Of a stretch of DNA of 64,000 nucleotides, positions 14,926-50,400 are shown in pieces. The notes under the pieces are model-generated. The model did not search any database, was not told the origin of the DNA, and saw only the letters and a program-made list of their open reading frames with translations. The position numbers and the translations under genes are program-made. The stretch is from NCBI RefSeq assembly GCF_003945345.1, contig NZ_AP019308.1, positions 2,914,001 through 2,978,000 of the forward strand, written 5' to 3'. How positions within the stretch are numbered: position 1 is the first letter of the stretch; every line of letters begins with the position of its first letter. The stretch is from Paenibacillus baekrokdamisoli (GTDB lineage: Bacteria > Bacillota > Bacilli > Paenibacillales > Paenibacillaceae).

Positions 14926-14953
14926 AAAAGGAACCCCAATCATTGGGATTCCT
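14921..14953 (-). terminator. Terminator overlapping the CDF stop codon
   Basis: On the minus strand GGAATCCCAAT and ATTGGGGTTCC form an 11-bp stem with one G-T pair, followed by TTTTCTTTT. The TGA stop of the CDF gene spans the arm and loop, so the last codons are part of the terminator. Confidence 0.85.
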
Positions 14954-15839
14954 CTGGGTACCATGGATTCAAATGAATCAGCACTTCATCTACATCACTA
15001 TGCTGCTCCATGATTCCTTTTTTGATTTCACGGGAGATATCATGTCCTTGCTGTATCGTTAATTCTGCTGGAATGCTGACCCTAGCATCTATTAGTACAT
15101 AATGACCGTGTTCCCTTGCCCGTAAGCGGTCAATCCGTTTGACTTGTGGAATCGAGTTGATATGTTCGGCAAATGCGTTCAAGCGATCCAAGCTGACGGT
15201 TTTCTCCATTAGTGTATCCATCGTTTCTTGAGACATATGAATCGCTAATCTCAGGACGAGAATCGAAACCACTATTCCCGCTACAGGATCGCCATAGGCT
15301 AGAAAATGAATGTCATATTTATCTCCAAGCAATGCTAATGCGATCCCGACAACAGCTGCAATTGATGCATAGACGTCAGCAAGATGATCATAGGCAGTGG
15401 CGATTAAGCCCTTACTATTGATCCTTCTGCCGATTCGGATTGTATAAATGTACAAGATCTGTTTCCAAATAAGAGAAATGGCAGCTGCGATTAATGCAAT
15501 TACACTTGCTTTTGCAGGCTCCTCAAATAGAGAGGACACGGCATGGTAACCGATATACATAGCCGCTAATCCTAAGATTATAGCTACAATTCCGGAACTA
15601 ATCACCTCTGCTTTGCCATGACCATAAGGGTGATCCTCGTCAGCCGGCTGCTTTGATATTCGCATAGAACTTAGCGCCGCAACAGTTGCAATGACATCAC
15701 CAGCATTATGCACGCCGTCTGCAAGCAATACGGGACTATTAAATACAAATCCAACTATAATTTTCAGAGCGGTAAGAATTAAATTACTAATTAAGCTGAT
15801 CCATACGGCGATAAATGATTCATTGTTCCCCTTACTCAT
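14940..15839 (-). CDS. Cation diffusion facilitator (CDF) metal exporter
   Basis: A 299-aa membrane protein with six helices and a cytoplasmic C-terminal dimer domain. Metal-site motifs are LADGVHNAGDV in helix 2, HPYGHGKAEVI after helix 3, and YDHLADVYAS in helix 5 (a DxxxD pattern with His). CDF proteins export Zn, Mn, Fe, Co or Ni by proton antiport. The ATG at 15839 follows GGAGGG by 9 bases. This start overlaps the TGA of a 37-codon leader ORF as ATGA, so translation is probably coupled. Longest similarity from memory is to MntE/YeaB-type members; the metal is not fixed. Confidence 0.88.
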   Translation of the reverse strand: MSKGNNESFIAVWISLISNLILTALKIIVGFVFNSPVLLADGVHNAGDVIATVAALSSMRISKQPADEDHPYGHGKAEVISSGIVAIILGLAAMYIGYHAVSSLFEEPAKASVIALIAAAISLIWKQILYIYTIRIGRRINSKGLIATAYDHLADVYASIAAVVGIALALLGDKYDIHFLAYGDPVAGIVVSILVLRLAIHMSQETMDTLMEKTVSLDRLNAFAEHINSIPQVKRIDRLRAREHGHYVLIDARVSIPAELTIQQGHDISREIKKGIMEQHSDVDEVLIHLNPWYPEESQ

Positions 15840-15949
15840 CTTTGATGCCCTCCGCCGAAACTTTTTCCCCAAGGAAACAAAAACCCTTGACTAGGGTTCG
15901 TCAAGGGTTGGATATTTTTAAATGGATGGTCTAAATGAAGCTGATTCAT
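15836..15949 (-). CDS. Candidate leader peptide (37 aa) upstream of the CDF gene
   Basis: ATG at 15949 follows GTGGGG by 6 bases. The frame is open for 37 codons, starts MNQLHLDHPFKN, contains three histidines and ends GGGHQR. Its TGA overlaps the CDF ATG (ATGA). It lies wholly within the mRNA leader predicted from the promoter at 15981-16009, and the intrinsic terminator hairpin is inside its coding region. That layout fits translation-controlled attenuation. No homologue is recalled; it is inferred from signals only. Confidence 0.5.
   Translation of the reverse strand: MNQLHLDHPFKNIQPLTNPSQGFLFPWGKSFGGGHQR
15871..15909 (-). terminator. Attenuator-type terminator in the CDF leader
   Basis: On the minus strand AACCCTTGAC (15900-15909) pairs with GTCAAGGGTT (15882-15891) around an 8-base loop, then TTTTTGTTTCC. 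It lies about 60-90 bases after the predicted transcription start and 32 bases before the CDF ATG, so it should stop transcription before the gene unless prevented. Confidence 0.8.
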
Positions 15950-15980
15950 GATATTCCCCACAATATTAAGACATTCACTT

Positions 15981-16009
15981 ATTATACCATGAGCATTTTC
16001 AGATGCAAA
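15981..16009 (-). promoter_or_regulatory. Probable SigA promoter of the CDF transcript
   Basis: On the minus strand TTTGCA (16004-16009), 17-base spacer, TATAAT (15981-15986, perfect). Transcription would start near 15974, giving a leader of about 135 bases. Confidence 0.7.
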
Positions 16010-49389: not shown

Positions 49390-50400
49390 TTATTTAGTTG
49401 ACTGACGGAAAATCAATTTGGGCATCAGCTGCTTGGGATTCTCAATGTTCTGCTCCTGCCGGATTAGCTTGTCTAACAAGATAGTGGCCTGTGTCCCCAT
49501 TTCCTCGGTATCCACTCTGATTGTCGTTAATGAGGGTGAGAACATGGCTGCGAAATCAATATCATCAAATCCTACAACGGCTATCTGATCTGGGATACGT
49601 ATCGACTGCTCTAGTAAAAATTTCATGGCGCCAAGGGCAATCATATCGTTGGTGGCAAATATCGATGTATATCCGCCTTCGCGAAATTGCTCCCAATGGC
49701 TGCTCATTAGCTCATATCCCTCACCAAAGGTCGAAGTTGAAGCATACTTAACAGAAAATGATGGGACTGGAATTCCGATTTGTGCCATGTAATTGATAAA
49801 TCCTTTAAGCCTCAAATTGTGGCTGCGATGCGTCTGCGGTCCGGCGATTACGAATATTCGGCTATGCCTTGCATTTGTTAGATGCTCGGCGACCATCCGT
49901 CCGCCTTCTTCGTCCTGATTGACAATGTGGATGACCCCGTCAACTTCTGTAGATCCGTTAACCATCACGTAGGGGACTCTGAATTTTGTGATGTAATCAA
50001 TGACGTTCTGCTGCAAGCGGCTGATTAAAATCAGGCCATCCACCCTTTTTTCCATCATATAATCGGCGGAGCGCAGTGACATCTCATGATCAGTCGTAAC
50101 GAACACAGAATAATTCAAGCTTGCTGCTGTCATTAAAATGGCATCGAGAATTTTCCCGTAAAATGGATGTGATGCTATAGGATGATGTCGGCGGTAAATA
50201 AGTACACCAATGTTGTGTGTTCTTTGTGAAACCATCGCCCTCGCTACTGCATTAGGTTTATATTGCAATTCTTCAATTAGCTGGAGTATCTTATCACGTG
50301 CCCCCGAGCTGGAATATCCCTTTCCGGAAATCACTCGCGATACGGTTGATTTGGACACACCCGCACGCAGGGCAATTTCTTTAATTGTAAGATTATCCAC
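49390..50400 (-). CDS. LacI-family regulator of the phosphodiester operon
   Basis: A 336-aa repressor. The helix-turn-helix LTIKEIALRAGVSKSTVSRVISGKGYSS and hinge YKPNAVARAMVSQRT are followed by a sugar-binding-type sensor (GVLIYRRHHPIAS... and VVGFDDIDFAAMFSPSLTTI). The start is taken as GTG (50400) because AAAGGAAG precedes it and the family begins here; upstream in-frame sequence contains its operators. First gene of the ABC/PHP/GDPD operon, so it regulates itself and the operon. Confidence 0.88.
   Translation of the reverse strand: MDNLTIKEIALRAGVSKSTVSRVISGKGYSSSGARDKILQLIEELQYKPNAVARAMVSQRTHNIGVLIYRRHHPIASHPFYGKILDAILMTAASLNYSVFVTTDHEMSLRSADYMMEKRVDGLILISRLQQNVIDYITKFRVPYVMVNGSTEVDGVIHIVNQDEEGGRMVAEHLTNARHSRIFVIAGPQTHRSHNLRLKGFINYMAQIGIPVPSFSVKYASTSTFGEGYELMSSHWEQFREGGYTSIFATNDMIALGAMKFLLEQSIRIPDQIAVVGFDDIDFAAMFSPSLTTIRVDTEEMGTQATILLDKLIRQEQNIENPKQLMPKLIFRQSTK

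Follow-up and report, generated by a model that had tools for sequence, protein, structure and literature searches.

The window, a 64,000-nucleotide stretch of the genome of Paenibacillus baekrokdamisoli (contig NZ_AP019308.1, positions 2,914,001 to 2,978,000), encodes on its minus strand a CDF-family divalent cation exporter of 299 amino acids (14940..15839). The protein is full-length and matched PF01545 (cation efflux, E = 9.6e-47), PF16916 (dimerisation, E = 2e-17) and TIGR01297; against the MntE model NF052621 it scored 108.9 bits, under the model cut-off of 500. The gene is preceded by a ribosome-binding site, recognizable as GGAGGG (15848..15853), and a terminator-like hairpin (14927..14955) lies at its end. 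Directly upstream on the same strand (16009-15836) is a leader made up of a promoter, a ribosome-binding site, a short open reading frame (ORF) and a terminator, which ends in an overlap with the exporter gene.

The original prediction of a SigA promoter at this position was borne out: TTTGCA (16009-16004) and TATAAT (15986-15981) are spaced by 17 bp, with TG before the -10 element (15981..16009, minus strand), giving 10 of 12 matches and an expected transcription start near 15974. This was the best of seven candidates between 14000 and 17500, a region in which promoter-like sites showed no excess (7 versus 6.3 in shuffled sequences). A -10 candidate was present in 32 of 33 representative leaders and was preceded by TG in 27, in a scan that favors TG and carries no shuffle control. 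Judged by eye from the layout of the window and the stems of the different clades, no shared promoter fits between the terminator and the gene, because 22 bp separate the end of the operator described below from the CDF start and the stem of the terminator is not the same in every clade.

The leader ORF (15836..15949, minus strand) runs for 37 codons from an ATG at 15949 to a TGA at 15836 and follows a ribosome-binding site with the sequence GGGGA (15955..15959); relatives often have GGTGAT, GAGTGAT or GGAG at this place. The coordinates and the histidines at positions 5, 8 and 35 agree with the original description, as does the ATGA (15839-15836) in which the stop codon of the ORF overlaps the CDF start codon at 15839. 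The frame passes through an intrinsic terminator hairpin, AACCCTTGAC/GTCAAGGGTT (15882..15909, minus strand), with 10 pairs and an 8-nt loop (-15.7 kcal/mol), followed by TTTGTTT as its T-rich tail (15881-15875). Overlapping this tail is a predicted MntR-type operator of 18 bp (15862..15879, minus strand; 14-mer core 15877-15864). MntR itself is encoded in the genome (NF003025, E = 3.5e-72, above the cut-off), and the MntR chains in the PDB match it (best E = 1.6e-63).

Distribution of the leader

A CDF protein scan of the genome collection returned twelve loci, seven of which were Paenibacillus CDFs at 67-76% identity, and four of these seven had the same leader DNA (Paenibacillus sp. 1_12, P. 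periandrae, P. xylaniclasticus and P. filicis). A covariance model built from six leaders (R1) was run over 394 genomes of the family and gave many weak matches; the top eight, the window included, directly precede CDF genes. Thirty R1 loci were fetched: 15 lay before a CDF gene, and 15, with weaker scores, did not. At one of the latter 15 (L083, 43 bits) the match was a plain terminator before a response-regulator gene, with the operator box absent. Another of them, in the window's genus, is a decayed copy of the leader beside a CDF gene fragment (locus L082 of genome G020, 1501-1582). A second model match in the window (49610-49667) lacks the hairpin and was taken as chance.

The matches listed from an order-level protein search, which were fewer than all its matches, and the fetched upstreams together provided 192 upstream regions, 182 of them distinct, which are not an even sample; CDF paralogues that matched more weakly (L020-L033) or were distant (L040-L042, L044 and L045) were omitted, and L112 and L117, which the script could not place, are outside the 192. 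The script called 84 leaders, of which L007 and L246 were dropped as false by eye, leaving 82 in the 182 distinct upstreams. Another promoter motif was present in 29 and neither feature in 71, and three of these 71 (L085, L087 and L088) escaped the script although model R1 identifies them as leaders. Within the window's own genus, the 15 CDF orthologues (L005-L019) were counted as leaderless, L007 having been dropped by eye. Subsets of these sequences were used for the antiterminator, tree and matrix analyses (33, 85 and 33, respectively).

The other promoter motif, TGTTTCTCTAGACCCACA, is conserved, forms a near palindrome (TGTnnnTCTAGAnnnACA) and was located by script before a -10 element (for example at L005, L019, L049, L053-L056, L066, L070, L228, L251, L263, L264 and L266; also at L112 and L117). 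It occurred together with the attenuator in none of the 182 upstreams.

A tree of 85 CDF proteins placed the window's gene with leader-bearing genes, mostly those of another family. The leader label changes five times in this tree, and at least four of the changes are forced by well-supported branches. The window's gene and its leader were probably acquired together. Two CDF copies were common in the genomes of another family of the order, and in the cases read often one copy had the leader and the other did not; among such pairs are L178/L210 (genome G447), L189/L236 (G476) and L161/L177 (G513), with leaders on both copies in G513. Two close kin of leader-bearing strains, L119 (G382) and L109 (G375), lack the attenuator; read by eye, L119 has the ribosome-binding site and start of the leader ORF in frame with the CDF gene.

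For a search beyond the order, 79 leaders were used to build a second model. Of 398 genomes taken from the class, 80 had a match to it at 1e-4, and the 20 best places (19 new loci and the window) were fetched. All 19 new loci precede a CDF gene (52-72% identity), one of them (L274) in the same order as the window. Hairpin and box were called by script in 17 of the 19; the remaining two, L284 and L283, the latter with a degenerate box, were assessed by eye alone, and in both the ORF likewise enters the hairpin. No relative was found in viral contigs, and plasmids contained one, L286 of Paenibacillus cellulosilyticus, from which the leader is absent.

Terminator hairpin

The fold of the whole 142-nt leader of the window was no better than that of shuffled sequences (z = -0.03), and the case for the terminator therefore rests on comparison. 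In 79 aligned leaders (76 distinct), 97.8% of the stem cells were paired and 10 of the 11 stem pairs changed on both sides. Cells changed on both sides numbered 99 versus 22.4 in shuffles, a value reached in none of 500 shuffles, in an alignment that was fitted to the model and hence leans towards the structure; the differences between stems can nevertheless be seen in the raw sequences themselves. Sliding the pairing partner strongly weakened this signal. Stem sequences differ by clade (for example AAACCTTGACC, AAAGTCCTAAACC, AAAAGTTCGA and ACAAGCCTTTGACC), and each is followed by a T-rich tail. The predicted terminator within the leader ORF was thus confirmed in that its stem covaries among relatives.

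Pairing of the 5' leader with an arm of the hairpin, as in an antiterminator, had a mean z of 0.17 and reached p ≤ 0.05 in 1 of 33 representative leaders. Rfam gave no match on the window's leader at E values up to 5 and, at gathering scores, none on any leader in 20 loci. Cobalamin and purine riboswitches from Rfam were found near loci L151 (561-762) and L115 (163-262), respectively, in both cases away from the leader.

Leader open reading frame

The leader ORF starts 40 nt before the terminator in the window and 33-61 nt before it in representative relatives. Starts were picked 30-62 nt before the hairpin by the best ribosome-binding site, with stop codons ignored, and a frame was considered open if no stop codon began more than 2 nt before the hairpin. 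By this rule, 75 of the 82 leaders in which a start was scored had an ORF frame open as far as the hairpin, compared to 32.1 expected from dinucleotide shuffles, and the remaining two frames were open in 9 and 33 of the 82. An earlier and cruder start rule, replaced after the initial run, gave 41 of 52 open, with 10 and 23 for the other frames. Among non-redundant leaders, 32 of 33 were open (14.3 expected, P = 2.6e-12), and so were all 17 of the class-wide leaders that were scored (6.8 expected; 2 of 19 unscored), under slightly loosened limits for the start range, hairpin score and box pattern.

The seven that were not open under the final rule were L043, L165, L171, L172, L185, L196 and L246. 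The ATG at -40 seen in L043 under the cruder rule is open to the hairpin; L165, L171, L172, L185 and L196 keep the hairpin and box with no scored ORF open to the hairpin.

The place at which the frame ends varied. In 18 of 33 leaders the stop codon fell within the hairpin or on its first base (the first base in L034 and L265), and in 14 it lay beyond the hairpin; L034, L035, L067, L084, L091 and L114-L116 are among those in which it lies at or in the hairpin. No stalling peptide or regulatory codons were shared, as judged by eye, and the peptides differ between clades. Because the reach of the ORF is kept while stop positions and peptides vary, it seems to be the presence of a ribosome at the 5' arm that is maintained, rather than a peptide. 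The proposal of an attenuator with a leader ORF gained support in this way, since comparison across genera and families indicates a frame selected to reach the terminator. Ribosome progress may decide whether the exporter is expressed.

The other half of that proposal, a metal-sensing leader peptide, did not survive the comparison. Aligning the leaders, a check that had been suggested with it, revealed compensatory changes in the stem and no conserved peptide residues. The histidines of the window's peptide and the metal exporter gene downstream are what would be expected if the leader RNA or the nascent peptide sensed metal itself, as a riboswitch or a metal-binding peptide. However, the peptides, their histidines and the ATGA overlap all vary across relatives, which removes the metal-binding peptide from consideration, and the Rfam results and the antiterminator pairing, no better than in shuffles, likewise speak against direct sensing, making this explanation extremely improbable.

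MntR-type operator

An 18-bp palindrome comes immediately after the covarying terminator in 82 of the 182 distinct upstreams of CDF orthologues. T-7 T-6 and A6 A7 were present in 81 of these 82 leaders; position -5 was T in 80, G in one and C in one, and position +5 was A or C in 81. The MntR site is described as an inverted repeat 18 bp long, made up of 9-bp halves that carry T at -7 and either G or T at -5, and in the same MntR-DNA structure paper T-7 is present in 19 of 20 half-sites (PMC11275975). Among the leaders the half-sites take TTTCC and TTGC(C) forms, and these differences often do not preserve RNA pairing, in keeping with a DNA half-site that has either G or T at -5. In L086 and L091, the core GTTTCCTTAAGGCAA was identical at 15 of 15 positions to the reverse complement of the B. 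subtilis mntH site as given in two publications (PMC9861239, PMC11416365). The palindrome fits the operator of the manganese sensor MntR, a prediction drawn from these sequence comparisons.

This prediction was extended to mntH genes using a matrix made from 33 leader boxes. A site was found at p ≤ 0.05 in 18 of 23 Nramp (mntH) upstreams, where about one was expected; the 23 are what remained of 28 Nramp places in 25 of 26 genomes once five cut, weak or second places had been set aside, and the regions include the gene start. The mntH site of the window's own genome (L104) was a weak match (p = 0.04).

An RNA hairpin formed by the palindrome was also considered and ruled out. The letters at -5 and +5 are unpaired in 24 of 82 leaders and in 7 of the 14 class-wide boxes counted, from 19 class-wide loci; this favors a DNA site over an RNA stem, and both halves fit MntR half-sites. 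The original remark that no known metal riboswitch motif is visible thus held for RNA and overlooked the MntR-type operator in the DNA directly after the hairpin.

In 73 of 82 leaders the start of the 14-mer lies at -38 relative to the CDF start, and the gap between hairpin and operator is -2 to +8 nt in all 82. In L078-L080 the CDF start is 60-80 nt further off and the spacing between hairpin and box is unchanged, so the operator appears to track the hairpin and not the gene start. There was no array of MntR sites; in 33 leaders a single site stands out from 60 bp before to 30 bp after. Because of the overlap between operator and T-rich tail, a polymerase in the act of terminating would have to compete with bound MntR for one stretch of DNA. 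This overlap would suit antitermination by MntR without any ribosome, in which the polymerase is touched or blocked so that release at the T-rich tail fails and the ORF serves another function such as protection of the RNA. Selection for an ORF that reaches the hairpin is left unexplained by such a mechanism, and it is considered quite unlikely.

The adjoining operator also bears on the substrate of the exporter, which is predicted to be manganese because an MntR-type operator lies next to the leader hairpin. The best reading of the locus is that of a conserved regulatory leader of an MneP-like CDF, a predicted manganese exporter.

The T-rich tail includes TTGTTT (15880-15875), which fits the NusG pause motif TTNTTT reported in a study of vmlR (PMC9226507). 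A possible reading of the attenuator is that it reports translation or growth state, through ribosome coupling and NusG pausing, with MntR merely fine-tuning the outcome; vmlR of B. subtilis, as described there, combines a leader ORF, NusG-dependent pausing at this motif and attenuation (PMC9226507). Against this stand the near invariance of the operator box at its key positions and the association of the leader with exporters: the leaders with hairpin and box that were fetched after searching the family and the class all precede CDF genes save for the remnant L082, and L083 has no box. A general sensor of translation is accordingly very improbable.

Proposed mechanism

The mechanism preferred here depends on timing, with MntR as a roadblock. 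RNA polymerase would initiate near 15974, and a ribosome would load at the start of the leader ORF, 40 nt upstream of the terminator. With MntR unbound, the polymerase would outrun the ribosome, the hairpin would form and transcription would stop. When manganese is high, Mn-MntR would sit on the operator that begins within the T-rich tail, and a polymerase arriving there would stall with the 3' arm of the hairpin unfinished, given the general size of the polymerase; a stall is expected because bound MntR would occupy DNA that the polymerase must enter to reach the release point. The ribosome could then catch up, cover the 5' arm of the hairpin and help push the polymerase beyond MntR, so that no terminator forms and the exporter is expressed. 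NusG pausing may contribute to this timing.

The separate steps have precedents. According to a review, ribosomes coupled to the polymerase cause antitermination at intrinsic terminators and drive a stalled polymerase past roadblocks, and the polymerase of B. subtilis outpaces ribosomes (PMC7858274). The timing model would explain the joint retention of the four parts of the leader and gives the right sign for an exporter. Its parts (the promoter, the open ORF, the covarying terminator, the palindrome at a near-fixed distance, the MntR gene, the mntH box and the CDF gene) are supported by the sequence comparisons; the binding of MntR at this site, the direction of control, stalling at the roadblock, ribosome-assisted antitermination and manganese as the exported metal are inferred. 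That Mn-MntR beyond the terminator holds the polymerase while a ribosome covers the 5' arm, turning the exporter on by readthrough, is tentatively favored, at a probability just short of even.

The main rival is that MntR acts as a plain repressing roadblock, so that high manganese lowers CDF expression and the terminator and ORF set a low basal level. One strong site in a transcribed region resembles the sites of a repressor, and mntH and mntA of B. subtilis are each described as repressed through one strong MntR site that binds a single dimer (PMC11275975). Protein roadblocks in E. coli were reported to lower readthrough in vivo, with Mfd removing the stalled polymerase (PMC4132739). These reports also count against the timing model, as do the use of four cooperative sites for mneP activation in B. 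subtilis (PMC11275975), an arrangement absent here, the five leaders that keep hairpin and box with no scored open ORF, the two whose ORF stops at the first base of the hairpin, and the weak mntH site of the window's own genome. However, repression has the wrong sign for a manganese exporter, and it leaves unexplained both the near-constant distance between operator and hairpin in the 82 leaders and the openness of the ORF up to the hairpin. A repressing roadblock is unlikely on these grounds, and activation through timing remains the preferred reading.

The leader would offer a compact, one-site case of MntR control, present in several families, whose promoter, ORF, terminator and operator are each open to mutation. 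If the timing model is correct, annotation would miss control of this kind, because neither RNA families nor promoter-operator models cover it. No title or abstract describing this leader was found in a search of the open-access literature, with subscription papers largely outside it.

Comparison with known systems

The mneP/mneS family consists of CDF-type manganese exporters, like the exporter predicted here. The B. subtilis genes have 18-bp MntR sites of the type predicted for the leader, but there four cooperative sites are situated upstream of and over the -35 element, one of them over the polymerase site and the rest upstream, whereas the leader has one site past a terminator in the transcribed region (PMC11275975). 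The molecular basis of MntR activation is called "not well understood" in that paper (PMC11275975). In another report, a B. subtilis mneP probe (-386/+118) shortened by 41 bases retained scarce MntR binding, and the passage does not state which end was removed (PMC10448178). An array of the mneP/mneS type, with sites 19 bp apart over and upstream of the -35 element, was absent from the 33 leaders examined.

Ribosome-mediated attenuators of the trp/his type likewise have a short leader ORF before a terminator. Unlike these, the leader described here has no shared regulatory codons and no antiterminator that could be found, and its ORF enters the terminator itself. The yybP-ykoY manganese riboswitch also places metal exporters under metal control through a 5' leader. 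The present leader had no Rfam match, and the proposed sensor is a protein on DNA. The vmlR attenuator shares with it a leader ORF, an intrinsic terminator and a dependence on the timing of polymerase and ribosome, but as described vmlR relies on an antibiotic-stalled ribosome and alternative RNA helices, with no DNA-bound metal sensor (PMC9226507).

DNA roadblocks of the LacI type are similar in that a DNA-bound protein obstructs the elongating polymerase; the reported result is reduced readthrough, whereas antitermination is the outcome proposed here (PMC4132739). If the timing model is true, a plain DNA roadblock can antiterminate where polymerase outruns the ribosome. It is somewhat less likely than not that a DNA-bound metalloregulator activates in this way, by roadblocking at an attenuator until the lagging ribosome catches up, so that timing alone would convert a repressor into an activator of manganese export in several families of one class, presumably the Bacilli. 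The recurrence of this layout in related bacteria points to a novel means by which an exporter could be turned on by a DNA-binding metal sensor.
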